From assembly GCA_002049455.2 (NCBI GenBank), contig KV918826.1, positions 229,938 through 293,937 of the forward strand: 64,000 bases of DNA, given 5' to 3'. Under the pieces are notes generated by a model that was given only the letters and a program-made list of their open reading frames with translations, made no database searches and had not been told where the DNA came from. Positions 19,627 through 46,689 of the stretch are shown here, one piece after another (the stretch's first letter is position 1; every line of letters starts with the position of its first letter). A program made the translations under genes and the position numbers. The DNA is from Porphyra umbilicalis (lineage: Eukaryota; Rhodophyta; Bangiophyceae; Bangiales; Bangiaceae).

Positions 19627-19661
<35 letters not shown>

Positions 19662-24357: not shown

Positions 24358-24510
24358 CCCTACAAGAAAATTTGACCGAAAATCCCAGGTTTTCTGCCTC
24401 GAAATCCCAGGTCGCCTGGGATACCGAGCCAAACCCACTTCCATGGAGCGATTTACCTGGGATTCCGTGCAACGGCGACCTGGCCCGTGCGGATCGACCT
24501 GGGATTTCGA
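24358..24510 (+). repeat. CACTA-1 left TIR and subterminal repeats
   Basis: The terminal inverted repeat (24358-24398) is followed by AATCCCAGGT-type motifs at about 24382, 24402, 24412 (inverted), 24452 (inverted) and 24495 (inverted). In plant CACTA elements such arrays are bound by TnpA; by analogy these are the binding sites for the accessory protein. Confidence 0.85.
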
Positions 24511-25239
24511 GTCCAATGTCGCGGATCGGCCTGGATGGGATCCTCAGCCTCTCTGCTCATGCCGCTTCGCACGCCAACAATCCCCGCCAGCTCGGAACAA
24601 ATTGTGAAGTGGCCGTGTCCTCATACATTCCCGACCTTCGGCCTGCCCCATCGCCACCGCGGCGTAGTGACACGTCAGGCTTCAGGGAGGGAGGGTATCC
24701 CCGGCTGGGCTTGTGCCCCGATACAGAAGGTCCGGTGACGCGGGCCGGCGGCGCTCTGGGCCGCCGCCAAGCGACCATTCCGGCATGTGGGGACATCAGG
24801 ACCAGCATGCCTCGAGCTGTCAGACTGGAGCAGGGGGGGGGGTGCAGCGGGTGGAAGGTGGCCAACACAGCGATGCATTGAGCCCCTCTCGTGTGCGTGC
24901 TGGAAGGGAAAAGTGAGACTTGTGGCCACCTGGTCGAAACACCTGAGGCTTATGACGAGCGAGCTGCTTCCAGTCTGGCCTTCCACCGTTGAGATCTAGA
25001 TGCCGATGGAAGCTTCCAGAGCATTCCACTGTCAGCCGTGCAATCCTGCCATTTGATAGGGCACTGCTTCGCCCTGTTTGCCTGTAAAAGAGTCTCCCAT
25101 GGCCTTACCGACGATGTGTTCCATCAGCCATCGACACTCGCATTGCCACCGCCGGTGCTCCTTCTTCGCCGCCTCGTCATCGACCTGCTGCTCCAGCTCC
25201 CCCCCCTATCCCAACCTCCACCCCCCACCAGCAGTGGCC

Positions 25240-28200
25240 ATGGTACCCTCTGGCGTCGGCGAGCGGTACGCCTGTTACTGCCCATCCTGCACGGACGACG
25301 GCCGCAGTGGTCCCAACTCGGTGTGTCGGTCAACTTTTTTTATCCACCGACAGCGTGAAAAGCGCCGTCGTCTGGAGCATGGCGGCCACGGTGGCGGTCC
25401 AGCTAATGCCCTACTCCCCAATGGTGGGGGGGGGGGACCATCAGCGGGCGACGGGCTTTCGGTGCCGTCGGGCGGCCAGGGTGGACAACCGCCAGGGGAT
25501 GACGGCGCCAGCGCACAGGCGGCCGTCGAGGCGGACCGGCGCCGATGCGATGCGGACGAAACGCCGGACGCAAGTGTGGCATCGAGCGATTCCACGTCAA
25601 ACGACGGATCAGACGGATCAGACGGGTCAAACGACGTGCCACCACCGGATTTCATCGCTGATCCGGAGCCAGAAGATCAGATTGGGGCTCCACCAATCCC
25701 GATTTACCAACCAACCGTCAGCACGAACGAAGTGCGTCTGACGGTGGGCCAGTTTAAGGATTGCAGAGCAGACCTTGCGCTGCATGCCTTTACAGTTCAA
25801 CACGATTTGACGCAAGCGTCGATTGCGGATCTACTTCAATTAAGCTCCTCCGCGGCCACGTACTGCACGCCCCACCTTATGGAGCGTTTCGTCGATGCAA
25901 GCGTCAACTTGGAGACAAGGTTAGTCGACTGTTGCGTCCACGGGTGCGTGGCCTTCACCCATACGCGCGCGCAACAGACCACGTGCGACGCTTGCGGATC
26001 ACCGCGCTTCAAAGCCAACGGCAAGCCGGCCAAACAGGTCACATACTGGTCCTTGACATCCTGGTTGGCTCACCTTCTCAGCGACCCCATAATTGGGAAG
26101 TCAATGATGGAGAACATGGCTGCGGCGCGCAAGGCTGTGGATGAAGTGGCCGACGGGGTCCACGACTACCCCCACAGCTCGAACTTCCGTCACTACCGCG
26201 ATGCAGGACTACTTGATCACGGCCCTTTCGTACCAGTTAACTGTGGAACCGACGGCTTTCAGTTCTTTCGGCAGAACGGGTTCGAAGGCTGGCCGGTAAC
26301 GGTCACACCCCTGAGCCTGAGCCCTAACCAACGGACGCGCATGAAGTACCAGCTACTGCTGGTCGTAACGCCTGGGCCAAGACAACCTGCCGACCTCGAA
26401 TCGTTTCTACACCCCATTGCGGCGGAGTTAAACGAGCTGGCCAAGGGTGTTCCCGGTCTAATAGTAGCCAACTCGCCAACCCCAGTCGTGTTAAGGGCCG
26501 GAGTGCTCAACTTTACGACGGATCAGCCGGGCGGCGACAAGCTCTGTCAGCTAACTGGCGTCAGCAGCTACATTTACAACCGTTTTCGCCTCTTCCAGGG
26601 AATCTACGCTCCTGCAAGTAGCCATGTCTACTTCCCGCCTAAGGATCTAAGCGGCAAGTCTCTGTTCAAAGTACGTGACTGCATTGCACCGCGACGCACG
26701 GCCGCAAGTATCGCCGTAAGTGCGGCTGAAGTGGAGGACGCGCGTGCAGAAGGCAGATCGGTCGCGTACCAGACAAGGCTGCAGCAGAAGAGTGGCGTCA
26801 AGGGCTACTCCCTGTTCTTCGCGCCCAGCCCAGCAATGCGCACCGCCTACCCGCACCTGAAACACTTATGGACAATGGGTCCTACCGCCGCCCCCTACGA
26901 TACCATGCACTTGGTGCTCCTAAACGTTGTGCCGCACCTGTGGAAGCTCTTCGCTGGGCTTAAGCTGGTAAACAACAAGAAGGACGAAGACTACTTCTTA
27001 CCGAAGGCGACGGTGGCCCTCATCGGCCGGGAGCTGCGGGAGGCGCGCCAGACGGTGCCCCTGGCCCAGGCCAGATCTCTGAGAAATATCGACATCCATC
27101 AAAAGTCCTTCAAGGCGGTCGACTGGATGCACTTTATCCTGTGCAGCGGAGAAGTACTGCTGGCAAGTCGGATTCCAAGCGCCTTCTACAAGATCTTCAT
27201 GGCACTAAGCCGCGCCTGCCGTCTGCTATTCCGACCTAGGGGCGTATCTGAGGCGGATATCCAGTCGATTGACAACGATCTCAAGTACTTCGTGACCAAC
27301 TACTACGATAAGATATACCGCGGATCGGCCGAGCGGTTACCGCTCTGCCTGTCTACAATTTCTTCTCTTCTAGACATTGTTCCGCTGCTCCGCGCGTGCG
27401 GCCCAGCCTGGGTCGTCTGGCAGTTTCCGATGGAGCGGAAAATTGGGACGCTGGGAAAGCTGATCCGCTCCAGTTCAAGACCGCACGCCACCCTCGTCAA
27501 GAATGTCACGCGCGAATGCAAGGCCGACCTCATTACTTCCTTTGGCCAGCAATACTTACCCACCGAATGGGCAGAAACAACTAAGAAACGTTGGACGGCG
27601 CCCGGTCTTCCTCGCGGCAGCCTGAAGGTACCTCAGGATGTCGGCGCTGACTGCGCGCTGCTACCACCTAGGAGCGAGCCGGTGGGCCTTGAAGGGGCGG
27701 AGCTTTCCAGTATGCGGGCAGTGCTGATCCAAGAAAACGCCGACGAAGTGCCTCTTCAGGTTTTGGCTAAGAAGTACTACCGAGCTAAGCTGGCGTCCGG
27801 AAAAATTGCCGGATCTAGGCCTGTCGGGTCGGACTGCGACAAGCGCCGGCGCCGCAACTACTTGGTACGGATCAACTCCCGAGAAGATTTCTTCCTCCCC
27901 GACGGTTCCGTGGGGGAGCGCTCAGTCTCAACGTTTGGGGCCATCTTACACTACGCGGCCGTGTTCATTGATGGCCAAGCAATGGCCTTCGCCTACGTAG
28001 AGCGCGTTAAGTCGGCTAAGGACCGCCCCGGCCGGTATGGTTACGCGGCGACCAAGTACGGGATTGAGTGTATCCTCGGGCTAGGCGGGTCGTGCGGATA
28101 CGTACCAGTCGGCGCCGTGGCCGAAGTTGTCGCCACAATTGGGAGAGAGGGCCTCCATTTTGTGTTGTTTAATAGGGAGCCGTTTTCTGAGGACCTGTAG
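25240..28200 (+). CDS. CACTA-1 Tnp2-family transposase (TnpD-like)
   Basis: A 986-residue, uninterrupted protein catalyses cut-and-paste transposition in the nucleus. Two catalytic aspartates of the Transposase_21 (Tnp2) fold are visible: D338 in CGTDGFQFF and D554 in PYDTMHLVLLNVVPHLWK. An N-terminal Cys cluster (CYCPSC, residues 11-16), a basic stretch REKRRRL, and a CC...C...C...CDAC zinc-ribbon-like segment (about 230-255) precede the core. I chose ATG 25240 because the transposase of CACTA-2 starts at the equivalent place (Cys cluster within ten residues). An in-frame ATG at 25099 would add 47 residues without counterpart. Base composition is lower in GC than host genes. Intact frame and termini suggest a potentially active copy. 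Confidence 0.93.
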   Translation: MVPSGVGERYACYCPSCTDDGRSGPNSVCRSTFFIHRQREKRRRLEHGGHGGGPANALLPNGGGGGPSAGDGLSVPSGGQGGQPPGDDGASAQAAVEADRRRCDADETPDASVASSDSTSNDGSDGSDGSNDVPPPDFIADPEPEDQIGAPPIPIYQPTVSTNEVRLTVGQFKDCRADLALHAFTVQHDLTQASIADLLQLSSSAATYCTPHLMERFVDASVNLETRLVDCCVHGCVAFTHTRAQQTTCDACGSPRFKANGKPAKQVTYWSLTSWLAHLLSDPIIGKSMMENMAAARKAVDEVADGVHDYPHSSNFRHYRDAGLLDHGPFVPVNCGTDGFQFFRQNGFEGWPVTVTPLSLSPNQRTRMKYQLLLVVTPGPRQPADLESFLHPIAAELNELAKGVPGLIVANSPTPVVLRAGVLNFTTDQPGGDKLCQLTGVSSYIYNRFRLFQGIYAPASSHVYFPPKDLSGKSLFKVRDCIAPRRTAASIAVSAAEVEDARAEGRSVAYQTRLQQKSGVKGYSLFFAPSPAMRTAYPHLKHLWTMGPTAAPYDTMHLVLLNVVPHLWKLFAGLKLVNNKKDEDYFLPKATVALIGRELREARQTVPLAQARSLRNIDIHQKSFKAVDWMHFILCSGEVLLASRIPSAFYKIFMALSRACRLLFRPRGVSEADIQSIDNDLKYFVTNYYDKIYRGSAERLPLCLSTISSLLDIVPLLRACGPAWVVWQFPMERKIGTLGKLIRSSSRPHATLVKNVTRECKADLITSFGQQYLPTEWAETTKKRWTAPGLPRGSLKVPQDVGADCALLPPRSEPVGLEGAELSSMRAVLIQENADEVPLQVLAKKYYRAKLASGKIAGSRPVGSDCDKRRRRNYLVRINSREDFFLPDGSVGERSVSTFGAILHYAAVFIDGQAMAFAYVERVKSAKDRPGRYGYAATKYGIECILGLGGSCGYVPVGAVAEVVATIGREGLHFVLFNREPFSEDL

Positions 28201-28814
28201 AACCAGAAGGGGTGGGCTAAGAGGACGCAAACCACTTGTCATTGGATTTAATTAAGCGTGTAACTGCCTAAAAATAATAGAAAGCAGTGACGAAGACAAG
28301 AACAACTGCCATATTTACTTTGTACACGCAAACAATTGCAGCTCTGATTCATTCCAGTGACGTTTCTACGCCAACCGGATCTCGACCGGACCCAGGGCCC
28401 ACGGAGGCCTCTGGGCCGCACGATCTCGGAAGAGCGGTCGAGGGGGCGGCATTGGTTTCCAATGGCCTCTGGCGGGGGTGCCCGTTCACCAGCACCGCCC
28501 GGCGGCAGCTTTCCGCCACCAGTGCTTCGTGGGCGCTCTACGGAAGGGGGGCGCTCAGAGCCTGCGCACTGTGAGTATTCTGGCCACGGCCCAGACGATG
28601 CCAGCGCACACCTGGCCACACTGACTACCACGGTGTGAGTGACGCGGTCACCGCAGTCGCAGGCACCACCCCGTCGCATCCAACGTCGCCTTCACCGTCG
28701 CGTCTCACAAAGGCACGCACACTCCCCGCCCCTTTTGCACCTGTCATCTGTGTCGCACTCTCGACGCTCCTTCCCCGATACCCCTGGACCGATCCTTTCC
28801 CGAGCTCCCGTAAC
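28201..28814. other. CACTA-1 intergenic leader
   Basis: The 614 bp between transposase and accessory genes has no frame of interest. It would contain the transposase terminator and accessory-gene promoter unless both come from one transcript by alternative splicing, as in plant En/Spm. Confidence 0.5.
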
Positions 28815-30195
28815 ATGGCGGCCGGCCGCAAGCGAGCGCGTGGTGCTAGCGGTACGTGTTGTTCGTTTCTTTGGATCTGATGTATATCCACTGCCCCCAC
28901 CCCCCACTCCCCCCCAACATCCCCCGTTCTGAGCGTGATTATGCTCTTTGTCCGTACGGCCACGTGTTATATGTGTGTGATATGCTGTCCCATCTTTGTA
29001 TGGACACCCGGTCCTCCTCGTCTGTCTTTTTTCGGCACAGAATGGTGTACATACGGGGGGAATGCACACTGGTATGGTGACTGACGAGACCGAAATACTT
29101 GAGTGCTTTCCTTTGCGTTGTGTTTCTTTGTGCTCGATATCCTTCTCTTCGATCCATTTCGTTTTCTTTCCAGGCAATTTGGCCGCCGCCGTCGCGGCGG
29201 CTGCAGCACTGCCGGCGGCGGCTCCCCGCGCGTCGAACGACGCATCGTCACCCCCGCGAGCGCAGCCGAATCGAACTTCGGGACGCCGGCGCGCGGCCGT
29301 TGCCACGCCGCCACCACCGCCGAATCGTCGGCTGTCCTCTCCCCGCGAGGCGTTGCCCCCGCCCCCCGTGCGAACGCGTCTCTCTTCTCGCGGTGCCGGC
29401 GCGCCAAGCTCTTCGGCGACGGGGGCTACTTCCGCGTGCCCGAACGGGCGCGGCAGCGCCGAGGCTGCGGCCGTTCCGGCGAGCCCTGCTGGGCCTGCGG
29501 CGGTTTTGAACGGCTCTTCGGAGCGCCCGCTGGTGGTTCTGCCCGTCCCATCTCGGTCACGTGGGGCGGGCAGGACCCGCGGCACCACGAACGGCCGGTG
29601 CGGATTCGATCTTCACCCGGACCCGGATGCCGCGCGGCGTGCGGTGGCGATACCCGCAGCCGCCGTCAACCGCTTGCCAGTTTTTCAGGTCCTTAACATC
29701 TCTGGGCCGGACGTGATACACATCAAGCGGCTGGCAAAGTCGGCCGCTAAGGTGTTTGACCCCCTCGTCACCTTCTGCGCACAGGCGCGAGTGGACATTG
29801 ACGTGGCCGTCCGGCACCTTGAGCGGTTCGAGCCGCGGCTGGGCGTTTGCGTTCGGAGCTGGGGTGCCTGCTGTCTACTGTCTAAGGTAGCCAACAACAG
29901 CGCGGCCTATCACAAGGCGCTCGCAAAGAAGGGGCAGGCCGGGCAGGCGGCGGCCGCGGCGGCGACGGCGGGCGGGGCAACGCTCCCGTCGCCGACACGG
30001 CCGCTGCCACCGCCGCCGACACGGCGGCTGCCACCGCCGCCAACACGGCCGCTGCCACCGCCGCCGAATCGGTCGGTGCGACCCTCGTCACCGGCTGCAC
30101 GGGTCAGATCGGGAACTAACGCCAGCGATCACGCAACCGTTGACAGTGCGACGGGTGCCCAGTCGGCCGAGGATTTCTTTGCTTCTCATCGCTAG
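28815..30195 (+). CDS. CACTA-1 accessory protein (TnpA-like), one intron
   Basis: Exon 1 (28815-28851) encodes MAAGRKRARGAS. A GTACGT donor starts the intron (28852-29173, acceptor TTTCTTTCCAG). Exon 2 (29174-30195) completes 352 residues. The splice is phase 1 and restores an open frame. The N-terminus is basic (nuclear-localisation-like). A conserved core lies about residues 180-260: IKRLAKSAAKVF...AVRHLERFEPRLGVCVRSWGA..LLSKVANN. A Pro/Arg repeat linker (LPPPPTR units) and the C-terminal QSAEDFFASHR follow. CACTA-2 encodes a homologue with the same exon structure, core and tail. No known domain is recognised. By position and partner it is the probable end-binding factor; that role is inferred. 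Confidence 0.85.
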
Positions 30196-30504
30196 TTAAT
30201 AAACACAACCATCCGACCTGTTCACAACATTGTCTAATCAATGAATACTTGACTAAACGGAATATTGCTATTATAGCAAGCTGTCAAGTATACTCGAACA
30301 CAGCGTACAGCAGAAACTGATATGCCAGTACGTAATACCGTACTTCACTCTTATATGTAACATTCTTTGAAGGTATCCCAGTGTAAGATTGTGCAGTCAC
30401 AACTGCACTCATACTTGAATATGGACCATTGCGCTGTCTGACAGCATTGCTCTCAGCCACCCATCTATGCAACGTGGATGCCTGTGAGCGAACCAAAGTC
30501 CATA

Positions 30505-30715
30505 CAATCCCAGGTTGTACCTGGGATTCTAAGCCCCAGCGATGCCCGAAGATCCCAGGCAAGCTGGTATTCCGCATGAGCTTGAGGTCCTTTTTTCAGG
30601 GCTGTGAAGGTCTTCGACCTGGGATATTGAGCCACACAACCTGGTTTTTTGTGCCACTTCACCTGGTATTATGGGCCATAAAACTTGGGATTTCTCGTTA
30701 GATGTTCTAGTAGGG
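30505..30715 (-). repeat. CACTA-1 right subterminal repeats and TIR
   Basis: ATCCCAGGT/ACCTGGGAT motifs lie at about 30508, 30518, 30560, 30617 and 30683. The terminal inverted repeat occupies 30675-30715 and ends GTAGGG. Confidence 0.85.
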
Positions 30716-30718
30716 CGG

Positions 30719-31748
30719 CAGAGGCGTTGGAGACAACGCCACCGGTACGGCGTCATCCGCCCCCGCCGTGGTCGTCAACCCCGCCGCCGCCGCCTTCGGC
30801 CAACCGTCGCGCACCAGCGCCACCGCGGGCGCCCCCCCGCCTCCACCAGCAGCAGGGAACGTCGACCCCACCGGAGGCAACGCCATCACGTCGGCCGCAG
30901 CCGCGGCGGCGTCCGTGGCACACGCCAACGCCGGTTCTGGCCGCGACGCTGGCGCCGCCACTGCCAACAGCAGCGCGGCAGCGTCGGCGTCGGGTGCAGG
31001 CGCCCCCCGACCTGCGGGCGTCAGCTCCAGCACCCGAACGGGCGCGGCCGACGGTCTTCCAGCGGCTGCATCCGCCGCCACTGCCGACGCTGCGGCGGCA
31101 GTCACGCCGCCACCGACGCAGGGGGCGGGCGTCACGGGGGAGCCACCCGCGACGACGACCGCAGCGGTGGCAACGGCGGTGGTGGCCGCCGCCGCCGCCG
31201 CGGCCGACGCGCCCGCAACGATGGGCGGCGGGGCGGCGGCGGGGGCACTCGCGGGGGGAGGGGACGGCAACCGCCCCATGGTCACAGGGGCGGGGCTATC
31301 CGCGGTGGCGGCGGCGGCGGCGGCACGCTTGTGAGGCGGCGGCGGCTCCATTCGGCGGCCGCCGCGGCGTCGGCGGGAGGCGTCCGCGGGAGCGTGGCGC
31401 GCCCCGCCACTCGTTGGGTGCCGCTGGCCCCGCGGCTGCGGTCGCCGCTGGGGCGGGGGGCACCGCCGGCGGCGCTCCAACCCGACCACCCGCCTGCTCC
31501 CGGCGGCCGACATCGGGCGCGGTCGCGCGCCAGCCGACGCTGCGGTACAGCAGCTGCTGCAGCTGCAGCTGCATGGTGGAGCCCCTCACCGCGGGCCACC
31601 CGGCACGGTGGGGGGCCTCCGGGCCACGGCTCGGGATCTGGGGTTGTTGGGCGTGGGCTCTGAAGGGCATGACTTGTTCAAAGTTGACGATGGTCAGTAC
31701 ATAGTTATCATGAAGATATCTCGACCAGACCTGGATGGCCTGTCCTGA
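30719..31748 (+). pseudogene. Right part of host frame split by CACTA-1
   Basis: The first portion (to the stop at 31334) is Ala/Thr/Gly-rich, continuing the composition left of the transposon. The last 50 codons in the same frame read LRATARDLGLLGVGSEGHDLF then KVDDGQYIVIMKISRPD, ending at 31746-31748. This has the composition of a real conserved C-terminus. A GTGAGG donor at 31329 and an AG near 31547 could splice out the intervening stop; alternatively the copy has decayed. No family is recognised. Confidence 0.45.
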
Positions 31749-33758
31749 CAATCTCGGCTCGGGGTGGCGGTCGACCCGGACCAATCACACGCCCTCCCGA
31801 GACCCAGGAGACACTGGCCGCAGGCTATTGCGACACACGTCGGCCGTTTAAAGACCCGCGGATCGTCATCGCCTCCCCACATACAATTGGCGCGGTGGGC
31901 GTGGCACGCCGTTCGGGAGATATCGGGCGCTGAGGTGTGCCCATCGAGGATTTTTTTGTGATTGGTCCACTGCATTGCATGCGTCGTCACGGGCTCTCAA
32001 GCGGCGGCATGCCACCTTTTCCTCTGTAATTCTTTATACGATGAGCTTGCCCTGGGGGCTTCGCAGTCAGGCCGACACCTCCAAAATGGGCGAGTGTGGG
32101 GGGGGGGGGGTTGGCTCTCGGTTTGGCCCAATCACCACCCCGACGCGCACACGGGCACGAGGAGAGGTGGCGGCGCTGAGGCGCCCGTCACCCGTGAAAG
32201 CGAGCGTTGCCTGTCTGAGCGAGTGCCGCTCGGGGTGTCTCCAAGGCCCTCTGGATGCGATTCGTGGCGCTTGTTGGAGCGGGAAGCCCCACAGCCTGGT
32301 CAGACAGGTGGCCCGAGGGGGGTGCTGGCGCGGCCAGGGCCGGCACCGAGGGGGGCTTGGTCACGCCTGCCTGCCTCGGGTCATCCCTGCTGGATCGACG
32401 TTTTTTTTTCTGCGTGTCGATTTCCACGGCTGCTGCCACTGGTGGGGAACGCGATTTCCTTGCAGCCGCCGCACAGGCCACTCGGTGCCCAGAATCGGCA
32501 ACTGCTTCATGGAAAACAGTATTTATATATTGAACGGAATACCATGTATACCAATGCTTCCCTAAACCCATATATGCATTTTCGTGCATCAAAAAATGAT
32601 CTATCTACTTAATTCTTCCACAGGAAGACTGCTAGACTTGTCAACTCCGATGTGTTGGGGGCACGTCTCGCATTGATGCATTGGTACACGGTACGAGAGC
32701 GTGACTGTATCCTGCGCTATCGGAGAAGCACGTGGAAACAAGGACCGGGTGTGAGTACGACAATTCGGACATCTCTCTCGGTGAGTGTGTCATTGAATGA
32801 AGCCATTCATGTTGACGACCTGCTTCACAGGGCATGGCTGTCACATCAGTGCATGCCCAGGAGAGTAGTACTCCAGCAGTTCGACATGCGTGTTTTTCTT
32901 AGAGGACGGGCGAGGATTCATGCCCTTCGTCGCTATCACCGTGACCTACCGTATTGCTGAATACAGCGGTCTTGCAGAGAGCGCTCTAGACAGGCAATAC
33001 AAGCACAGTGCTGCGAGAGCACATGAAGGATGCAGACTTGCTGGATATATGTGGTCGTGTAACTTCCTCTCAAATGCCTGAATGAATATCTAACTTTAAG
33101 TCGATTTTGCAGCACAACACAAGTAGGTCGGCATCGAAAGTGATATATATATATTTACGTTGTCAAACGTCTCAAGTATCAAATGGCTCTGAATGACACA
33201 GATGTGTCAAGTCGATGGCAACGTCCGATTTCTCATCCATTCTCGACACTGTTCCCTTTCCTCTGCTTCAGCACTCGAGGGGCGTCGGGCACACCCTGCA
33301 GGGAGGGTGCGTGCCAAGCAGCTCCTGACTTGTCTTGTCTAGCGTGCGCGCTACAGCCCCCTGGGAGCGGGTCGGTGGTTGGGGCTCTCGCAACTGCCAC
33401 GCCTGCCCCGCATGCGTACTTGAAGGGTGGCCGGGTGAGCCCATTGTGGCGACCTCGGGCTGCCACGCGCCCCCACCTCCCTCACAGCTCCGGCAAACAA
33501 GAGCTCGCACGCCCACCCTTCCATACCCCACACGCCCGTTCCGCCGCCAGTCGTCGAGCTGCCGCCTCCCCCTCCTCACGCTCGCTACCCGGGCCTCCGC
33601 GTGCCTGTGCCGTCGCCATCCCTGCCACGTTCCTCACGACGCCGCCGGACACCCGCTCGCCACGCACTTCCCCCACGCTGCTCAACCGGCCGTTCCCTCT
33701 TCATCTACCGAGCGCGCTTCGTCTCTCCCTCCTTGGCAGCTAACCCCCCCCTGTTGTC
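31749..33758. other. Gene-poor stretch of balanced composition
   Basis: Two kb with AT-rich patches (TATATATATATT at 33143) and no domain-bearing frame. A plus frame at 32640-32960 is open for about 105 codons without an ATG, behind an acceptor-like ATTCTTCCACAG. It is unproven. The last 500 bp may be the leader of the next gene, ending in CTCCCTCCTTGGCAG just before its ATG. Confidence 0.4.
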
Positions 33759-34884: not shown

Positions 34885-36312
34885 CTAAGGTGGACAGGAC
34901 ACCTTGCGGAGGATGAGCCTCTCCCGCGGCTCACAAAACACGAGTGCCTCGGAGGGCGTCGACGCGCCCGGCGCTGGCGTCGGCGTCGGCCCGAGGAGGG
35001 TCCACACAGGCACCGTGTCGGTCGAGCACCGGCACTCCCCGTCCGCGTCCCAGGTGAAGCCTGAACAGTCGGGCACGGTGCACATGCCCGTCCCCGTCGA
35101 GCTGTCGTTGCGCGCAAACGCCACGCACGTGCCCGTCGATGCCAGCTGACTGCACCCGACGGTCGTTGGCGCCAGCTGCTCGGGCGGGAAGCACTCGGCG
35201 TGCTCACAAAAGCCCCAACACTGCGTCGACGAGTCGGCCACGCGGATGCCGCACACGTGCTGCGCGCCCGCGGTGATGTAGCTAAACTCGGTCGTGGTGG
35301 GCGTCGTGGGGAAGAAGCTCGAGATGATGCGGCCCCAGCAGACGGGCGTGCGGTCCGAGCGGAGCGCGCAGCTAAAGCCGCTGCCCGATGCGACCGACCC
35401 GGGGCCAGTTTGGAAGTCGCTGCCGGTTGGGATGGACGACGGGTCCGTCACCACCCGGCCGGCCGACCCCCAACAGTGCAGCACGTCCCCGTTGGTCGCC
35501 GTGCCGACGCCGCACACGTGGTCGCTGCCAGCCACAATCGTGGAGAAGGCAACGCCCTCCCGGTTGTCAAACGACGGGTCCGTCACGTCCTTGGTGTTCT
35601 CAAACGCGTCAAAGTCGCCCGACGACCCAAACGTGCCGTCGCAGTTGACCCGCCCCGCGCGGGTGCGGGAGCAGGTGAAGGAGTCGCCAACGGTCACGTC
35701 GACCACCGGATCGTCGGAGCTGCCAATGTAGGAGGGCGTGAGGAAAGACTCGTTGCCGCGGCTGCTCGTCACGCCATTGCCCCAGCACACTGGGCGGACG
35801 CTGCTCTCAAACTCAGTCGTCTCCTCGTCCGAGAGCGTCGACCGCGGCGCCTGCGCGTCAAAATCCCAAAAGTCAAAGTTCGCTGTCAACCCACACACGT
35901 GCTGCGCGCCCGCCGACAGCTGCAGGTACGACTGGTTGGTGAGCGCGCCGGCAATGCGCGCGTCTGACGACGCGTCCTGCCCGCGGCACACCACCGACAG
36001 GTTGGCCGACAGCAGGAGGCACGCCACATTGTTCCCGGCGGCGATGGAGTAGACGTCGAGCGACGCCACGTCCTCAGTGCTGAACGGCCGCACCGTCCCC
36101 CACACGTACACGGTGCCGCCTTCGATGCCCGTTGAAAACTCTCGGCCGAGGCTGAGCGACCCAAACGCGGGCGTCACCTGCGCCTGCACACGGAGGGCGC
36201 CAAGGGTGCAGAGCGTCATCCAGAGCAGCGCCGCGACAGCAACGGCTGGCCTCCCCAGGGCGGCGGGGAGCCCCGTCCGCACCGCAAACGGCCGCGCCGG
36301 TCGGACGACCAT
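34885..36312 (-). CDS. Secreted RCC1-like repeat protein B
   Basis: A 475-residue extracellular repeat protein, paralogue of the one at 14698-16175. ATG 36312 opens a signal peptide (ALGRPAVAVAALLWMTLCTLGALRVQA) cleaved before QVTPAFGSL. An upstream in-frame GTG adds nothing conserved. About six RCC1-type repeats carry paired Cys and Trp-Gly motifs (AGAQHVCGIR...STQCWG). The C-terminus has the Cys-rich CTVPDCSGF...GECRC segment, the PTPTPAPG hinge and LVFCEPRERL. The frame is intact, so it serves as the reference for the broken paralogue A. Third positions are GC-rich but G/C runs are shorter than in A. Confidence 0.88.
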   Translation of the reverse strand: MVVRPARPFAVRTGLPAALGRPAVAVAALLWMTLCTLGALRVQAQVTPAFGSLSLGREFSTGIEGGTVYVWGTVRPFSTEDVASLDVYSIAAGNNVACLLLSANLSVVCRGQDASSDARIAGALTNQSYLQLSAGAQHVCGLTANFDFWDFDAQAPRSTLSDEETTEFESSVRPVCWGNGVTSSRGNESFLTPSYIGSSDDPVVDVTVGDSFTCSRTRAGRVNCDGTFGSSGDFDAFENTKDVTDPSFDNREGVAFSTIVAGSDHVCGVGTATNGDVLHCWGSAGRVVTDPSSIPTGSDFQTGPGSVASGSGFSCALRSDRTPVCWGRIISSFFPTTPTTTEFSYITAGAQHVCGIRVADSSTQCWGFCEHAECFPPEQLAPTTVGCSQLASTGTCVAFARNDSSTGTGMCTVPDCSGFTWDADGECRCSTDTVPVWTLLGPTPTPAPGASTPSEALVFCEPRERLILRKVSCPP

Positions 36313-38224
36313 GGTGGCGGGCGCGGGCAGATGACACACGCGCAGTCGGTCGAACCGCAGCAGGGGCCCGCCCGTCGACGTCGGTCGTTCCCCCCTTCAA
36401 GGCCTCGCCTACCCACCCGCGGCGGCAAGACGACGGCGGGGGGGACGGAGGAAGGAACTCGACCACGAAGACCTGCCCGCGTGGGGTTGTGTGTGGAGGA
36501 GCCGGCGGCGCGGACCACAATGCACGCGGCGGCGTACCCTTCACCCCAACCCTCCGCCCCGCCCGCCGCCGGCCCAGTGAGCACCACCGGGAGCGCTTCC
36601 ACGCGCACTGGCGAGGGCCAGGCAGAGGCCACCCAGCAAGCCCCGTCGCCCGAGCCGCGCGCCGTACGAGGGATGGCACGCGGTACAAAACCCGGGAAGG
36701 CCTCCCACAATACGCAAGGGGGTGCCCCACGAGGCCAGCAGGAACAGCAAAGGAACCAAAGGTACACACACACGCGTGACGCACGAGCCAGCAGGCAGCA
36801 GAAACCAGCACGGTCTGGCGGAATCCCTGCCACGCCCCATCCACCGTGGGTACCGCTGCGCTCGCCACGGCGCAGGCGCCGCAGCCGGCAAAGCAGCCAC
36901 CCTCCCCCACCCCCCGCCTACCGCCCATCCCACCCCACCAGGAGGAAGCCCCACTTACACCCCCTCTGGCAGGGGCGGTCGCGCGACGCAGGCGTTGGTC
37001 TCGGCCGCCCTCGCACACCCCCCCCCCGCCCCCATCATCCGGGAACGAACACGCGGCGACGGGAGTGGCCTGGAAGCGGGCGCCGGCGCGGCTGGAGCGC
37101 CATACGGCGCGGCGCTGCAGGCGACGCGGCGCTCGGCCAGCGCCGGCGCTGCCGTCTGTCAGTCGGCCCCGATGGCACGGCCATCGTCACGAAAGAACGC
37201 GGCCGGCAGCGCCCGGCAGGCGGCGCCGCGCCAGCCACGACGACATTGTCAGCGGCGGCTTGCGGCAATGCGGAAGGGCGGCCAGCGTCCAGCGGCCAGC
37301 GGCGAGCGCGCCGGGGTGGGTGCGGGGAGGGCGGACGACGGCGACGAGTGGCCACTGGCGGCGTTGGTGGTGCCGCCGTAGAGGTGCGGCACCAGGAACG
37401 AAATATTGTCGGACCTCGAACGGCGTACACGTGTACGAACATAGAAGTACATGCGAAGTGCCAGTTAGGATAAATACAACTAGTGTTCGAAGTACTATGG
37501 AGGAACGGACAACAAGAAAAAGATAGACACGAGGAAGAAGTCAAACGCCGACCGCCTGCCGACGTTGTGTGCAGGGGCGCACCACGACAGACGGACCAAC
37601 GTACTCTCCGCGACTGCCGCGACTGCCGCGACTGCCGCGACTGCCGCGACGCTCTTCAAGACGCCGTTCCACACCACCGCACCACCGTGTCCCCCACGCC
37701 GACCCCCCGCCACACCCGTGCCGCTCCCCAGTGCACGACCCCTCACCACCGCGGGCGGGATCGCGAGCGGCGGGCCCGTTGCCCCCGGCCTGCTGTTGGC
37801 GGGTGACACCCCCTCCCGCCGGCGCTTGGGCGCTCGGTTTGGTCCCGGTCACCCAAGCGCGCTCCGTTTGGTCCCGGTCAACAACAAGAACACAAAAGGC
37901 CACAGACGTCCTGCAGACGCCTCTGTCGCTCGCCGCACCCGTGCGGATACGACAACCCCGACGCCGGGTAGCGTCGGCCGGGACGGCCGCCCGCTGCAGG
38001 CCTCCGGCCAGACTGGGCGGCAGGTCAACCGCCCGTCCACCCACCCACACGGCTCGGGGCCATGGCGGACGCGCCCGCCCATCCCCCTCCACCCACGACG
38101 CGGCCCCGACCCGCGTCGGGCGCCTCGGCTCACAGCGGTCCGTCCACCGAGGAGCGGCGCGGTTATTGCCCCCCCCCCTCCGTGGCGCCGGCACCATCCC
38201 CCCCCCCCCCCCCCTCCCCCCCCC
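36313..38224. other. Intergenic, repeats, no supported gene
   Basis: Upstream region of RCC1-like gene B and downstream of the nitrilase. It contains a nine-base tandem array CCGCGACTG (37608-37660, nearly six units) and a short direct repeat TTTGGTCCCGGTCA (37837 and 37867). Frames around 36700-37380 are open but carry no recognisable domain. Confidence 0.45.
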
Positions 38225-39062
38225 CAGTGCACGACCGTCACGGGCGCGGTCGGCCCGTCGACGGCGTGCCCATGTCCCCGGGGCATGCGGCGCCCCCCCC
38301 CCGGCGGCAGCTCGACGAGCGTCACGCCCGGGGCGTCCCCCCCCAGATCGGCGAGAACCCCCCCCCACGCGTCCACGGCGAGGGCGTGGCCCCAGCTGGT
38401 GCGCCCCCCCCCCCCCCCCCCGGCGCGTGGTCCCCCACCTGCGCGGCCGCCACCACCGGCACCCCCCCCTCAATCGCGCGCGCGCGGAGGAGCACCTCCC
38501 AGTGGTCCCGCCCCGTCCCGACCGCAAACGCCGACGGGACGAGGAGGAGGTCCGCCCCCGCCCCGACGAGCGCGCGGTACATGCCCGCAAAGCGCACGTC
38601 GTAGCACGTTGACAAGCCGACCGCGCCGACGGGCGTGTGGGCAACGACGACGAGCGCGTCGCCCGGGGTGATCGTGTCCGACTCGCGAAAGGCGGTGCCG
38701 TCGGGGAGCACCGCGTCAAAGAGGTGCGCCTTGCGGTAGGCGCCAACGATGGCGCCCGCCCCGTCGACGAGCGCGTGCGTGTTGTACACGCGCCCGCCGT
38801 CGCGCTCGTGGAAGCCGCCGAGGGACAACCACACCCCGTGGCGCGCCGCGAGGGCGCGGTAGCGGCCAAAGAGGGGGCCGTCCAGCGGTTCGGCGACGGC
38901 CGCCGACGCGCCCGCGCGGGGGGGCATAAACGCAAAGCACTCGGGGAGGGCGACGAGGGCGGCGCCGCCGGCAGCGGCGGCGGCGACCGCGGCTGCGACC
39001 GCGTCAAAGTTGTCGTCGACCGACGCGGTCGACGTTAGCTGCGTGAGGGCGACGAGCGGCAT
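38225..39062 (-). CDS. Carbon-nitrogen hydrolase, Nit1/Nit2-type amidase, frame broken
   Basis: Nitrilase-superfamily amidases hydrolyse small amides; the closest types are deaminated-glutathione amidase (Nit1) and omega-amidase (Nit2). The full catalytic triad is visible in order: E in LPECFAF, K in YRKAHLFD and C in GLSTCYDVRF. VYNTHALVDGAG, RESDTITPGD and RAIEGGVPVVAAAQVGDH are family stretches, the last closest to Nit1. ATG 39062 opens MPLVALTQLTST. After the AAQVGDH motif the frame is lost in an 18-C run (38404-38421). The next frame gives the expected GHALAVDAWGGVLADLG. One added base repairs it. The true C-terminus is unclear because more C runs follow, so the end given is approximate. 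Probably cytosolic; no targeting signal is seen. Confidence 0.82.
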
Positions 39063-40286
39063 GGTGGGGGGGGGGGGGGGGGGCCCGCCGCCGGCGCGGT
39101 GCGGCGGGGGAAGGGGGGGGGGGGGGCGCCGCCGCCGGCGCAGTGGCGGGGGGGGGGGGGGGGGGGCGGGGCGCGCCCGCCGGTGTAGTGGGGGGGCGGG
39201 CGGGGGGGCGCGCCCGCCGGCGCAGTGGGGGGTCGGGGGGGGCGGCCGCACGGGGGTGGGCCCTCGCGGCGGGCGGGGGCGGGCCACGGACCGGGCGCCG
39301 GCGCACGCCGCGGCGGCCGGCGGGCAAGAAGGCACAAGGGTGGGGGCGTCGGGCGACGCCGTGCAAAAAAAAAAAAAAAAAAAAAAAAAAGGCGGAAAAA
39401 CCAGCCGGGGCCGTGGCGACGGACGCGTAGCGCCAGACGCGGCGGCGGCGGCGCGGCGGCGCGGGTGCACCGCGCGGCCGCGCCGCGGGCGCGGCGGGGC
39501 CGGCGGGGCGGGCCCGCCGCCGCGCCCCGCCACGCGCCCGTGATCCGCGCGGCGGCGGCCGCGGCGTTCCCCCCCCCCCCCCCCCCACGCCCGCGCGCGG
39601 CGCGGCGCGGCGACCCCCCCCCCCCGCGCCGCCGCCGCGCCCCCGCTCCCCCGCCCGCCCGCCCGCCCGCCCGCCTGCCCGCGCACACCGCCGCCGCCGC
39701 GTTGCCGGGTGGGCGCGCGCCCCCCCCGCCCCCCCCCCTCCCCCCCCCATGCGTCGGCGCCGCCGCGCAGCGTCGGCGGCGCGGCACGCACGGGCGGGCG
39801 GGCGGCGGCGGGCGGGGGCGGGGGTGTGTGCCCCCCCGCTGGCGTCCGCGGTTGGCCGCGGGGGGGGGGGGGGGGGGGAGGAGGGGGGGGGGGGGGGGTG
39901 CGGGCGCACGCCCCGCGCGACCCCCCCGCGCCCGCGGCCGCGGCACCGCCGCCCGTGGCGGCGGCGGCGGCGGCGGACGCGGCGGCGGACGCGGCGTGGG
40001 GCCGATGGCGGGGACGCGGCCGCCGCCGCCGCCGCCGCGCGGCCGCCGCCGTGGGGGGGAGGGCGCTGCCGCCGCGGGGGGGTACCGCCGCCGCCCCCCC
40101 GCCCGCGCGGCTGGCGCGCGCGGCGTTTCCCCCCCGCGCCCCGGCGGCAGCGTCACGGGCGGGGCTGGTCGGACCGCCGCCCGGCCGTGACGGTCGCCCG
40201 CCGGTGGGCGCGTGGCGGGGAGGCGGACGCGGTCGGGAGGGCAGAGCCGTTTAGGACGGGACCGGTCGGTACGTACGGTACTGGGG
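39063..40286. other. Extremely GC-rich spacer upstream of nitrilase
   Basis: Multiple G or C runs of 10-20 bases (39063-39083, 39569-39586, 39859-39898) surround a single pure A tract. Open frames on both strands are compositional. It should contain the nitrilase promoter. Confidence 0.6.
39365..39390 (+). repeat. Poly(A) tract, 26 bases
   Basis: Twenty-six consecutive A residues sit about 300 bp upstream of the nitrilase start, on the strand opposite to the gene, in sequence otherwise over 80% GC. It could be a nucleosome-excluding poly(dA:dT) promoter element or the tail of a retroposed transcript. No coding match is visible to its left. Confidence 0.95.
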
Positions 40287-40398
40287 ATGGCTCGAATCCT
40301 GCATGCTCTTGAGGAGCTATCTGGCAGCAGAGAAGCGCCAACAAGCGCCATGCAAGAAAAAAGCACTTTTTGGTCTATCTCTGCGAGGCCCGCCTCGA
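40287..40398. other. Left flank of CACTA-2, possible coding remnant
   Basis: On plus, ATG 40287 opens MARILHALEELSGSREAPT, which runs into the transposon. After removing the element and one CGA it would continue in frame to a stop at 46787. On minus, the frame from 46889 also crosses the repaired site. Strand cannot be decided. Confidence 0.3.
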
Positions 40399-40560
40399 CC
40401 CTACAAGGAAAATAACCGCGATATCGGGGGTGAAGTGGGGGCTCAAAATCGCTGGTAGGACCCCCCCTCACGGGTTCTCTGAGGCATGCCAGAACCCGCG
40501 ATATCGGAACTTCTGGCTGACCATAATCGCGGTTTTTTCCGCGATTTTCTGGTCGCGATC
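40399..40560 (-). repeat. CACTA-2 left TIR and subterminal repeats
   Basis: Terminal inverted repeat 40399-40430, then CCGCGATATCGG-type motifs at about 40416 and 40498, and inverted AATCGCGG with CCGCGATTTTCTGG at 40526-40550. These are the presumed binding sites for the element's own accessory protein. Confidence 0.82.
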
Positions 40561-40685
40561 GGTGGCACTTTGATTTGCTGAGAGGCCTCCACGTGTTCTG
40601 CGTCATTGGCCCAGAGAGCATCTCAGAGCACATTCTCAACCACAGCTTTCAGCCAGCTTGTATTGGAATATCCGATTGTTTACAG

Positions 40686-42403
40686 CTATCTACTAATGCT
40701 AGCAAAGAAATCCTCGGCGGTCCTGGTGGCCGGGGCGTCCCCACGCCGCGTTGCGCCCGCGTGGCCACCCGCACCACCGCGGGCGCGGATGCCGTCCCCG
40801 CCCCCTCCCCCTCTCATTCCCCTCGCGTCCGGGCTTGCACCGACGGCCAAGCCTGTAATGACCTGACCCGCACCGGCGGCGCCGGTTGGCGAACGACCTG
40901 GCATCGAGCCGGTGCTGGTCGCGTCGGCCCTAGTGCCGGCCCGAGCAGGGCGCACAGTGTCGGCGCTCGCACCGACCCGAGAGGGGCTCGTCCCTCCGAG
41001 GGCAAGCGAGGGTGTCGACGAAGCGGGTGCATCCTCAGAGCAGCAGCGTGCGTGCACGTGCGCCGCCTTGTTGTTGATCGCGCGGGAAAGCAGGGCACAC
41101 GCCCCCCAGGAACGCACACAGGCCGCCAAACGCGGCTCGTGCAGCTCCACGTAGGTGATTGCCTGCTCCATGTCCTGCGAGTGCTGATAGCCCCACGTGA
41201 GGTAGCTGGTGAAGTACTCTTTGACTGCCGCCCGCACGATTGAACGGACAAACAGCACGCGGTCGGGGGGGATACCGACGGCGTCGTTTCCGAATACGGG
41301 CATCTTGTTCACTGGCGGCGGCGGTGCCGCCAGTGTTCGAGCGACCGCATGCGGGTCGGCGGGCAGGTCAAACCCGCCGCGGCCGTTCGTGTGGGCCCGA
41401 CCGCGGCGCGGTTGTCGGCAGCGGCAGGGGGTCTCGGTCGCCCCTCCCCCTGTGCTGCTTGCGGCGGGAAGTCGCGACGGTCGCGGCAGATGCGCGCGCC
41501 GTCGCGGGCCAGGCAAAACTGGAGGGGCTGGCGCGGGGGGTGCCTGCCGTCCGCCGCTTGACGTAGCCAGGGCCCCGCCCGTGGCGTTGCCCTCCAGCCT
41601 GCTTGTCGCCTCCGGCCGAGGCCCGCGCGCCGGGGATCCCGGCGTTCCACCCTGTCGACGTCCACTTGAAACGGGCGGGCCCGACCCGGGCAGAGCCCCC
41701 GAGCCAGACCCGCGCCGCGCGGTAGCGCGTCCCCCACTTGGCGCAAGCGGGCGCGAATCCGCCAACGAAATTTCATCCGTGGCATGACCGTCCGAGTCGC
41801 CCGCCCGAATGGAATCCAGTCTCGCCGCCGGAGCCCTAGTCCCTTGCACTGGCAATAAACCTCCCAATGGGAGCCTCGCGTGGCGGGCCGCCGCTCTGGG
41901 GGGTGGCACCGGCGCCCTCTTCGGCGGCGGCCGCGGAGGAGCCCGGCGAGGCGGCTGGGTACGATGCGCCTGCAAAGCCGCTCTCGCTGGAGATGGGGGC
42001 GTTCGACGAGAAGGTGACATAGCGGGTGAAGGTGAGGATGGGCGTTGCGCCGCCGTTCTTGAGGAAGCGCGCCGACGAATAGGACGATGGGCAACGTCTT
42101 CGGCGTCACCATCATCGGCTGCAAGGACGGAAAAAGCAGCGGCAGCCGCCGCTGCTGCAGCGACACTGGCTTCTAAGTCTGAAAACGAAAACCATGCTCA
42201 AAACGCGGCCAAAAAGAAAAGCAGCACAATAGTGTTAGCGGAAAAATAACACCGGGGGCCGGACACGCTACGCGGTCGTCGCGGCTATACTAACAACTCA
42301 ACAGCAGGTACAGGAGAAGGAAAGTACAAACAATACAACAAGAAGAGCTCACAAACGTACGATCTTGAGCCACCTCGCGCGTTCGTTTGCGAGTAGACGG
42401 CAT
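40686..42403 (-). CDS. CACTA-2 accessory protein (TnpA-like), one intron
   Basis: Exon 1 (42403 down to 42361) encodes MPSTRKRTREVAQD. The intron (42360-42179) has a GTACGT donor and a TTTTCGTTTTCAG acceptor and is phase 1. Exon 2 runs 42178 down to 40686. The total is 511 residues. The N-terminus is basic, followed by low-complexity Ala/Pro/Arg sequence. The core PPDRVLFVRSIVRAAVKEYF, then EQAITYVELHEPRLAACVRSWGACALLSRAINNKAA, matches the CACTA-1 protein. The tail TAEDFFASISR also matches. Identical intron position and phase prove common descent. The low-complexity middle differs completely. No known domain is recognised; a subterminal DNA-binding role is inferred. Confidence 0.85.
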
Positions 42404-43221
42404 AGTATTCTGTGTCAGCCTGACACAAAGGTGCTGTTAGAAGCTTACGTGGACCGTACGGTCCCGAGCGGCGGACCCGACGGGGCGGGGAAACCAAAGG
42501 GAAAGTGATGGCAAAGGTACGTCTGGAAGCAAACACACAGGCGTGGTGCGTGGTGGAACAATCAATCCGGGCAGGGGACGGGGGACGGAGAAGCGATCGG
42601 GATGAGGTGGAATGTGTAGGAAGGTGGGCGGGGGGGTGACGAGGGCGGACAGGATCTCGACAGAAAGCGGCGACGTGAGGGTGTGGGCGGGCTGGTGGGA
42701 GCGTGTGCCAAGTCCCAGCGTGTGGTCGTGTGGCAGGACAGCGTGTGGCTTTGGTCCCAGCGGGTGGTCGTGTGGCAGGACAGCGTGTGGCTTTGGTGCG
42801 ATCACGGTGGCCCACTGAGTGAAACCTCCAGCCCGCTCGCTGGAAGTACGCACTTAAGCTTTCTGCAGCCAATTTCTGAGACACCAGATAAATACAGCGA
42901 TCCAGGAGCAAACCTGTGCCCAACCGTGACAGGTGAGTGCATAGCTCGGCTCTGACGTTTCGGTGGGATTGCTCCGCGAATGCACATTAGTCGCCACGCA
43001 TCGCTGATGCAGTCAAATGCATGATCCTCGACCCCCGTTCTGGGGAGGGAGTCATCAACGGGTCCGCCTCCGTCGTTTCCACGACGCTTTGGATCATCCG
43101 AAGGGACGCCCGGCCACTCTGGCAACAGACCACCGCAATATTGGGTCACCCCGCCCTTTTTATGAGCACCCTCTTGTCTGGTCACACCCAATACATCCAT
43201 GCTCCTAGATCAGAGAGACGA
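42404..43221. other. CACTA-2 intergenic leader
   Basis: Between the transposase and accessory genes, 818 bp. It includes a two-copy 42-bp tandem repeat (42712-42795, GTCCCAGCG[T/G]GTGGTCGTG...) ending in a partial third unit. No frame of interest is seen. Confidence 0.6.
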
Positions 43222-46145
43222 TTATCGCTCCTCCGAGAACGGCTCTCGCGCATACAACACAAAATGCACCCCTTCTCGCTCCAGACTCCCGACCACCGCG
43301 TCCAGCGACGCGGCTGGCGCGTAGTAGCGCACCCCGTCCGCGCTAAAAAAACAATCAATCCCAAAGCGTTGCGCGGGGTAGCCGTAGCGCCCTTGCCGGT
43401 CGCGCGCAGACTTGATCCGCGTGAGGTAGGCAAAAGCCATTGGTTCTCCATCGACAAACACAACGGCGTAGTGAAGTGCCGCAGCATAGGTGGTCACAGG
43501 CACGTCCACCTCCTGACCGTCAGACCGCCGCCGCTTCTCCGTGGAATTAATTCGAAGGAGATAATTGGGGCGGCGATGTTTGGTACAGTCCGAACCGGCC
43601 GGCCGCGACCCTGCCAATTTTCCGTCCACAAGCTTGAGTCGGAAGAACTTCATCGCCAAAATGGCGGCTGGCACGTCCGCAACGCCAGCGACAGCGAGCG
43701 CCTCCCGCATGCTGGCCAGCTCTGCGTCAGCGAGGTGGGCCACAGCAGAGCGAGGAGGCAGCAGGGTTACAGCCTCGCCCCCGCCCACAGATACCACGAC
43801 GCTACCGCGGGGGGGGCCTTCGCCCCGCGGCGCCTTGCCGGTCGCCTCTCTCCACTGCACCGGTGCGTACGTCTGCCCAAACGCCGTTACCAGCTCAGCC
43901 TGAGTCCGTCGCATCAGGCTGGCGGTGAGGTTGGCGCTCGGGCTGGAGTGCGAGTGGACGAGTGGCCCGAGCTCCCCGATTTTACGCTCCGCCGGGAATT
44001 GCCACGAAACCCAGGCCGGCCCGCACGCGCGCATGTTTGGCACGATGTCCAGCACAGCGGCGATAACTGACCGGCACAACGGGAGGCGCGCATAGGTACC
44101 GCGGTACACGTTGCGGTAGTACCGGCGCACAAACCGCTGCAGTCGACTCTCGACGTCGTCAATTTCCGGTGGGGAGAGGCCGCGGGGACGGAAGAGGATG
44201 CGGCACGCTTTGCACAGCGTCCTCAGCATTGCGTAGTGCGAGTCGGGAATTCGACCCGCCAACAGGACTTCAGCAGTCGAAACCAACCAGTACATCCAGT
44301 CCACGGCCTTAAACGACCGGAATTGAGTGTCGATGTTGCGTAGCGATCGAGCTTGGGCTCGGGGCACCGTGCGCCGTGCCCCGACCATCTCGCGGCCAAT
44401 GAGCGCTACGGTCGCTGCAGGCAACACATAGTCCTCATTAGCTGTCCCCTCAACCGGTACCTTACCAGCGAACAGCTTCCAAAGGAGAGGGGCGACGTTT
44501 TGCAACAGCAAATGCATCACGTCATACGGAGCCCTGGCGGGACCAGGGCTCCATGTGCGTGTCAGGTGCGGGTACGCCAGTCGCATTGCCTCAGACGGGG
44601 CAAAGAACAGCGAGTGTCCTTTGATCCCTGACAATTTGGAGAGCCGGTTCTGGTGGGCCTGCGACCGACCTGTCACCCGAGCCTCCTCCACCGCTGCAGC
44701 ATCACGGGCGAAGCTCTCGGCCGTCCTTCGCGGGACAGTACAATTGCGAACAGCAAACAGCACCGTTCCATGGGGACAAGTAGGGTCCACCGGAGGAAAG
44801 TAGTGGTGGTTGCTGGCCGCGTGGTGCACCCCGTGAAATTCACGACCCCGGTTCGGCGAGTAGCCACCAGACCCGGTCGTATTCAGCAGCTTATCGCCAG
44901 CCGGCATATCCGTCGTAAATTGGACCGGATGGGCCCGCAAGACAATCGGTTCCGAGGTACCAGCGACGCGAATACCAGGAATGCCCCGCGCCAGCTCGTT
45001 CAACTCCTCCGCCAGAGGGTGCAGAAACGACTCCAGATCGACAGGCTGTCGAGGCCCGGGTGTAATGGCCACGACAATTTGACACACATTGCGCGTCCTT
45101 GCACCTGGTGGCAGGTTAAGAACAGTCACAATGATGGGCCAGCCCTGAAATCCTCCTTGGCGCCATGCCTCAAAACCGTCCGTGGAAATGCTGAGAGCAA
45201 TGTCGGTGTCCTTCGTAAAAAGGCCAGCACGAACCGCCGCGAGGAAGACAAGGCCATGGTACCAGTCATGGAGTCCCTCCTTTTGCTTCCCGTCCGCACA
45301 GGCGGCGGCCGCCTGGCGCGCGCTGTTCATGCCGGCCATAATGTCAGGACCCAAAGTTGGGTCACTGAGCATATTGACGAGCCACCCTGTCAGCGGCCAG
45401 TATGTCATTTGCCGCACCGGCTGCCCGTTGGCGGCGTACCGTGCAGCACCGCAGGCATCACATACCGTCTCTTCTGACCGGGTGTGCGTGAAGGCGACGC
45501 AGCCATTGACGCAGCAGTCCACCTGACGCCGCTCAACATTGACGCTTGCCTCAATGAACTTTCTCATGAGGTACGGAGTTCGATACTTAGCCTTGCATGC
45601 GCGCAGCTTAAGCAGATCTGCAAACGCCTCCTCGGTGAGATCATGGTTCACAGAGTAAGTAAACATCGCCAAGTCTTCGGCGTTCTCGGCAAATTGAGTC
45701 ACGGGAAGCTGTACCTCGTTGGAGCTTACAGAGTCCTGGATTACAGGGTCTGGCAACCCAATCAGCTCCGCAGCAGGACCGGCTTCGTCGGCAGGCTCCT
45801 CCACGACAAAAGCGGCGGCCTGAGGGAGCTATCCTCGCTGCAAGCAGCGGCCCCCCCATCAGCCGTGTGATCAGGTCCTGGTGGACAGTCCGCGCCCGCA
45901 GTCTCCCCCCCTCCCCCCCCCCCAGAGCCGGTGGCCAGATCGGCCAGAGGCTCGTCCCCGTCCGTGTCCGTGTTACTTCCAGTGGGGCCCGCAGAGCCAC
46001 CACCAGAGACACTTTCTCCTGTCAGCCGGCGCCGCTTGTTCGCCTGATGGCGGAACCATGTCCTCTTGGACACCAGACAGGGAGGGTCTTCACCGTCACC
46101 CGTACAGGCGTCGCAATCGCACAGGCGCCGGCTGTCAGTGGGCAT
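43222..46145 (-). CDS. CACTA-2 Tnp2-family transposase, one frame change
   Basis: Homologue of the CACTA-1 transposase over its whole length. The N-terminal part (ATG 46145) reads MPTDSRRLCDCDACTGDG with the same early Cys cluster and a basic KRRRLTG stretch. The main 861-codon frame carries the CC..GC...CDACG zinc-ribbon-like segment and both catalytic aspartates (STDGFEAW and APYDVMHLLLQNVAPLLWK). It ends LYAREPFSEER. The two frames overlap between about 45762 and 45829, where one base must be gained or a small intron removed. An acceptor-like CTCCCTCAG lies at 45820-45828. No long homopolymer lies at the junction, so decay of this copy is possible. Expected product is about 970 residues. 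Confidence 0.85.
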
Positions 46146-46549
46146 TTTGTGCCTGTAGACGGACCGGGGGAGGACGTGAGGAGGACGGAAGAGGGGAGTA
46201 GCAGGGGACTGGGGGGGGTTGAGGGGAGAGGGGGGTCAAGGGGCGACGGCAGGTAGCGTCCGGCGGGGGCGCCGACGCGGCAGCTTTCGGTGGGGACGAC
46301 GATGAGACAGCACCGAGCGCGGCAGCAAGATGGGAGAGCCCGAGAATGCCGGCACTGCGGCGACGGGGGCACCGACTAAATAGACATGCCGACGGCTCTT
46401 CGTCCAATGAGACGAAAGAACCGCCTCATCAAGTCGCGGAATGCGGTTGTCTTTACAGCGGTTCGACGAATGCAGTCGAAGGATCACTGTCCATGTCCGT
46501 CGCGGTCTCCTGTGTTCCTGTCCAGGGAGAGCCCAGGAAAACTGGCCTG

Positions 46550-46689
46550 ACTGACCCGCGATTTTCAGGCACCCCGTTTGGCTACCTGCCCTGGCACCCC
46601 CCTGCGGGAGGAGTGCTGCTGAGAGGGTTGGGGAAACCCGCGATTTTCGTCCCATATTCCGCGATATCGCGGGTATATTTCTTGTAGGG
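46550..46689 (+). repeat. CACTA-2 right subterminal repeats and TIR
   Basis: ACCCGCGATTTTC appears at 46554 and 46636, then a perfect 14-bp palindrome CCGCGATATCGCGG at 46659-46672 within the terminal inverted repeat (46658-46689). Confidence 0.85.

Follow-up and report, generated by a model that had tools for sequence, protein, structure and literature searches.

The DNA analysed here is a 64,000-nucleotide stretch of the red alga Porphyra umbilicalis (assembly GCA_002049455.2, contig KV918826.1, positions 229,938 to 293,937 of the forward strand; hereafter the window), which carries two CACTA-like transposons, each with a Tnp2-type transposase gene and a second, accessory gene. Element A occupies positions 24358-30715 (6358 bp, plus strand) and lies between copies of the target site duplication (TSD) CGG at 24355-24357 and 30716-30718. 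Element B occupies 40399-46689 (6291 bp, genes on the minus strand), with the TSD CGA at 40396-40398 and 46690-46692. The tips of element A read CCCTACAAG and CCCTACTAG, those of element B CCCTACAAG at both ends, and CCCTAC was found at all four. The inverted match of one tip to the other extends over 55 bp in A (74.5 % identity) and 31 bp in B (87 %) in blastn. Since the CCCTAC hexamer alone is not unusual in the window (19 occurrences against 23.7 expected), the weight rests on the paired inverted ends and the duplications. The first-pass annotation, made from the bare sequence, had placed both transposons in the span 24358-46689; they do lie inside it, as two separate elements and not as one unit. 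The 9.7 kb that separate them are other DNA, in which a nitrilase-type gene and a frame with RCC1 repeats are situated. A 3-bp TSD, as in the CACTA/EnSpm group, flanks both elements. Because none of the four tips starts with CAC(TA), the elements were named CACTA-like and were filed in the group by their Tnp2 only.

The Tnp2 gene of element A is a single open frame (25240-28200, plus strand), the start codon of which (ATG at 25240) was picked by comparison with element B. The product matches PF02992 (Transposase_21/Tnp2) with an E value of 2.3e-7 (30.6 bits), and that of element B (43222-46145, minus strand) with an E value of 7.4e-9 (35.5 bits), both above the cut-off of 28.6 bits. A DUF4218 match in A was under the cut-off (E 0.25). 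The two transposases are 54 % identical. The description of CCCTAC ends, 3-bp duplications, a Tnp2 gene and a second gene on the same strand in both elements was therefore borne out by the blastn end matches, the CGG and CGA repeats and PF02992. The earlier claim that both transposons are complete has to be qualified for B, since the start (ATG at 46145) and the main frame (43222-45828) of its Tnp2 lie in different frames. This change near the 5' end may represent an intron, or a frameshift inactivating element B. By script, 22 GT-AG pairs were obtained whose removal would bring the two parts into one frame; the GTACGT donor of the accessory introns described below is absent from all 22, and the best candidate chosen by eye is GTAACA...TTGCCAG (45976-45750, minus strand). 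The N-terminus of Tnp2 shows a C-x-C-x2-C...H pattern in both elements, and Pfam returned no match to this Cys/His region. The D, D and E residues were assigned by eye. A C(2)C plus H(3-4)H motif has been described as common to CMC/Transib transposases (PMC12730594). In a crude pattern scan no such motif was found to be shared by the two Tnp2 proteins: A had none, and in B the order was reversed, with H..H (at 332 and 336) ahead of C..C (at 539).

The second gene lies downstream of Tnp2 on the same strand in both elements and is predicted to consist of two exons. In element A, a tiny exon 1 (28815-28851, 37 nt, plus strand) encoding the basic head MAAGRKRARGAS is followed by a phase 1 intron (28852-29173, 322 bp, GTACGT...CCAG) and by exon 2 (29174-30195), giving a predicted protein of 352 amino acids. 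In element B, on the minus strand, exon 1 (42403-42361, 43 nt) encodes the basic head MPSTRKRTREVAQD, the intron is again of phase 1 (42360-42179, 182 bp, GTACGT...TCAG), and exon 2 extends from 42178 to 40686, with a predicted protein of 511 amino acids. Both proteins end in AEDFFAS followed by two or three residues (tag at 30166-30186 in A, plus strand, and 40698-40718 in B, minus strand), and both are basic, with 48 K+R residues against 17 D+E in A and 70 against 35 in B.

Comparison of the two accessory proteins delimited a conserved core, encoded at 29596-29910 (plus strand) in A and at 41059-41393 (minus strand) in B, with 33 identical residues out of 84 (39 %, BLASTP E 2e-16). The core-to-core score of 226 was reached by none of 1000 shuffles (27.5 +/- 4.8, z score 41). 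The linkers on either side of it scored at the level of chance (N-terminal, z -0.15, 270 of 500 shuffles reaching the score; C-terminal, z -1.5, 491 of 500). Two earlier statements thus held: a basic tiny exon 1, a phase 1 GTACGT intron, a core and an AEDFFAS tail are common to the second proteins, and the low-complexity parts of these proteins are unrelated. Outside Tnp2, the DNA of A and B gave two blastn matches below E 0.01, one of 45 bp where the core begins and one of 18 bp at the AEDFFAS tail. The accessory protein has diverged more than Tnp2 between the two elements. With a home-made Nei-Gojobori calculation, the non-synonymous (dN) and synonymous (dS) divergences were 0.58 and 1.75 for the core and 0.42 and 2.20 for Tnp2, pointing to purifying selection on both, and the differences in Tnp2 at codon positions 1, 2 and 3 were 301, 253 and 527 in 854 codons. 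The values calculated for the N linker, because of its alanine/proline composition, and for the C part, which had been cut out of frame, were set aside. Since the second gene agrees in place, strand, intron phase, head and tail between elements whose Tnp2 proteins are 54 % identical, it belongs to the element and is a conserved part of it in both cases.

That the second gene was captured from the host, or is a host gene enclosed between the ends by chance, is accordingly very improbable. Gene capture is common in CACTA elements (PMC8195511), and host homologues could exist, as the genome collections searched for relatives were viral and prokaryotic; set against this, two families with near-saturated synonymous sites keep a gene that is alike in intron phase, head, core and tail, and no credible Pfam family matched the accessory protein. 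Its stray Pfam rows (DUF5529, E 0.1; DUF2457, 2.3; crAss_THB, 0.2) were far under the cut-off, and the rows obtained for the core among Protein Data Bank (PDB) sequences were at the level of chance (one row in one search, LIMK2 at E 1.3; ten in the other, the best at E 0.5 and seven of them MyD88). A loose likeness of the W...NN stretch to the end of plant Ptta proteins was given no weight. No relative was confirmed in viral contigs among 3 pattern matches for Tnp2 of B, 34 for the Tnp2 alignment and 138 and 67 for the accessory alignments, nor in prokaryote genome contigs among 21 matches for the Tnp2 alignment and 61 for the accessory core. The phage collection gave no match for Tnp2 of B. 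Such absence is expected for a eukaryote element and, these collections being viral and prokaryotic, says little about eukaryotes. PDB sequences gave no row for the Tnp2 alignment at E ≤ 1, the accessory core proved unrelated to Tnp2 in hhalign (probability 0.5 %), and Rfam had no match in the window. No description of the accessory protein was found in a literature search whose coverage left out most subscription journals.

Each element carries its own end-specific array of short motifs, in which the spacing of the copies from the tips is nearly constant. The arrays were first spotted by counting repeated words near the tips with both ends pooled. In element A, the motif AATCCCAGGT occurs in both orientations in the 5' array (24381-24506), and in the 3' array (30506-30692) its copies lie 24, 46, 68 (two mismatches) and 90 bp from the tip, so that the positions 24 and 46 bp are occupied at both ends. 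In element B, the motif ATCGCGGGT forms a gene-5' array (46554-46674) and a gene-3' array (40414-40545), with copies 25 (two mismatches) and 46 bp from the 5' tip and 25 and 50 bp from the 3' tip. With one mismatch allowed, AATCCCAGGT had nine matches in the window, all nine within about 210 bp of the tips of A, and ATCGCGGGT had 14 (eight at the tips of B, one inside B and five outside); at the same stringency neither motif was found at the ends of the other element. In a split test, the matches outside the 5' end fell in the opposite 260 bp in 5 of 5 cases for A (P 1e-12) and in 5 of 11 for B (P 5e-10). The top 9-mer of the joined 250-bp ends occurred seven times in A and four times in B, against a maximum of three in 300 dinucleotide shuffles. 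Both motifs, ACCTGGGATT in A and ACCCGCGAT in B, combine a GC-rich half with an AT-rich half. The two elements therefore have common tips, different motifs and nearly common spacing. Family-specific subterminal arrays, by which a TnpA is recognised functionally, are present at both ends of each element, less strongly in B by exact 9-mer count, and offer a plausible substrate for a TnpA-like role.

In maize, both TnpD, which is of the Tnp2 type, and TnpA are required, and TnpA binds the subterminal repeats (PMC2613891). TnpA and TNP1 of snapdragon Tam1 have little similarity, and the authors of that paper argued that the transposase is conserved together with the terminal inverted repeats and that the second protein diverges together with the subterminal repeats, one part of which is rich in GC and the other in AT; the divergence of tnpA is also stated in PMC8195511. 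Elements A and B fit this pattern, because their tips are common, the motif differs and divergence is greater in the accessory protein than in Tnp2. It is proposed, with a probability of about 0.6, that the accessory protein binds the subterminal DNA of the element that encodes it and is a functional equivalent of plant TnpA/TNP1. Tnp2 would recognise and cut the CCCTACAAG-type tips common to both elements, and the accessory protein would bind the family-specific motif array just inside the tips and pair the ends; it probably would also act on the element promoter. DNA could be contacted by the helical core or by the basic head, and AEDFFAS may serve as a docking or activation motif. Of the first-pass claim that the second gene is an algal counterpart of TnpA, the part that places the gene in the element is firm, and the further parts, here as there, are drawn from sequence; we infer in particular that reading the arrays and pairing the ends is the work of this protein.

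Several points weigh against this assignment. No recognised DNA-binding domain was found in the accessory protein in Pfam, among PDB sequences or with Foldseek. The structure prediction of the core, a check already suggested in the first-pass annotation, gave a predicted local distance difference test score (pLDDT) of 42.5 for 119 residues and, after trimming to 91 residues, a helical model, still weak at 62.3, with which Foldseek returned no match at E ≤ 10; since the model is weak, the core may still have a known fold. The comparison covers two elements only, dS is close to saturation in it, and the excess of third-position differences in the core is weak (45, 36 and 56 at positions 1, 2 and 3 in 88 codons). 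As for the arrays, the split test was not blind, since the motifs had been noticed with both ends pooled, and the 9-mer count of B is only one above the shuffle maximum. Among 2000 random pairs of window segments, 139 reached the count of four or more seen in B and 32 the seven of A, a number of them from segments that overlap the ends of A itself.

The Cys/His N-terminus of Tnp2 could itself read the motifs, which is also a point against the proposed assignment. The accessory protein would then be a subunit that binds not DNA but Tnp2, with AEDFFAS as one possible contact, and that assists in assembly or nuclear import. The lack of a recognised DNA-binding domain in Pfam agrees with such a role. 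The strongly basic character of the protein argues against it, as does its divergence, which exceeds that of Tnp2 just as the divergence of the motif exceeds that of the tips; in maize, moreover, the subterminal binder is the second protein, TnpA (PMC2613891). This explanation is considered unlikely.

Slightly less likely again is a sequence-specific anti-silencing factor resembling VANC of the Arabidopsis VANDAL elements, which would bind the motifs and remove methylation or activate the promoter while being dispensable for cutting. VANC proteins, like the accessory protein in its proposed role, are element-encoded and sequence-specific (PMC10398659), although VANDAL elements belong to a different group and were compared by description only. 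Element-encoded proteins acting against DNA methylation, TnpA included, have been reported (PMC10398659), a promoter could make use of arrays close to the ends, and the accessory tail is judged acidic and aromatic. The nearly equal distances of the copies from both ends, on the other hand, fit a role in end pairing better than one confined to promoter control, and the two roles are compatible, TnpA being credited with both (PMC1636069, PMC2613891).

The proposed subterminal binder can be compared with the second proteins of other systems. Maize En/Spm (TnpA with TnpD) and snapdragon Tam1 (TNP1 with TNP2) share with A and B a Tnp2-type transposase accompanied by a second protein, a 3-bp TSD, subterminal arrays of repeats that are AT-rich in one half and GC-rich in the other, and second proteins that are dissimilar between elements (PMC2613891). 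Unlike En/Spm and Tam1, A and B have CCCTAC and not CACTA at their tips, and their second protein is predicted to come from an apparent two-exon gene of its own and not from mosaic splicing. The claim that there is no recognisable sequence relation to plant TnpA was upheld: Transposase_24 (PF03004), which PMC8195511 takes as the Pfam domain for tnpA, gave no row at E ≤ 10 for the cores, fragments or exon 2-bearing frames of A and B, in scans in which the HMMER filters discard most matches above about E 0.1. The animal and fungal TRC elements, such as SmTRC1 of Schistosoma, also have a Transposase_21 domain; animal members have tips starting with CCC (Tribolium, CCCTAGTAGC...), and one SmTRC1 clone has a second tandem open reading frame (PMC1636069). 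According to the same paper, they differ from A and B in the 2-bp direct repeats beside the tips of two insect elements and in extra proteins arising from alternative splicing, a comparison made by description only. The red-algal giant EnSpm elements, as stated in PMC12477816, are likewise of EnSpm type with accessory genes; unlike A and B, they are giant and carry multiple accessory genes, again compared by description only.

Among the neighbouring features, a carbon-nitrogen hydrolase (nitrilase-type) gene lies at 38325-39062 on the minus strand (PF00795, E 3.7e-47). Element B is situated about 1.3 kb upstream of its candidate start at 39062, and the upstream end of the open frame is about 150 bp from B. 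Two RCC1-repeat open frames were found, at 18478-20985 (plus strand, PF13540, E 8.5e-6) and 34888-36396 (minus strand, PF13540, E 4.8e-7); in a tblastn search of plasmids, the flanking RCC1-type frame gave one weak match, in Acidovorax (24.9 % identity, E 2e-6). An open frame of 1360 codons at 59860-63942 (plus strand) had no Pfam match at E ≤ 0.001.

Two-component systems with dissimilar partners are already known, and what is new here is probably a variant with a new partner family. It is tentatively suggested, as somewhat less than an even chance, that this accessory family is unrelated by descent to TnpA/TNP1 and evolved independently, in another eukaryote lineage, as an obligatory subterminal-binding partner of Tnp2, its specificity changing in step with the repeats (AATCCCAGGT versus ATCGCGGGT) while the repeat spacing and the pairing of Tnp2 with the tips stayed fixed. 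With the accessory protein, the two-component CACTA design, in which a conserved tip transposase works with a fast-evolving partner at the inner repeats, would gain a partner of another kind and might reach beyond land plants. Elements A and B supply two matched pairs of protein and motif, in which co-evolution is directly testable by swapping the partners.

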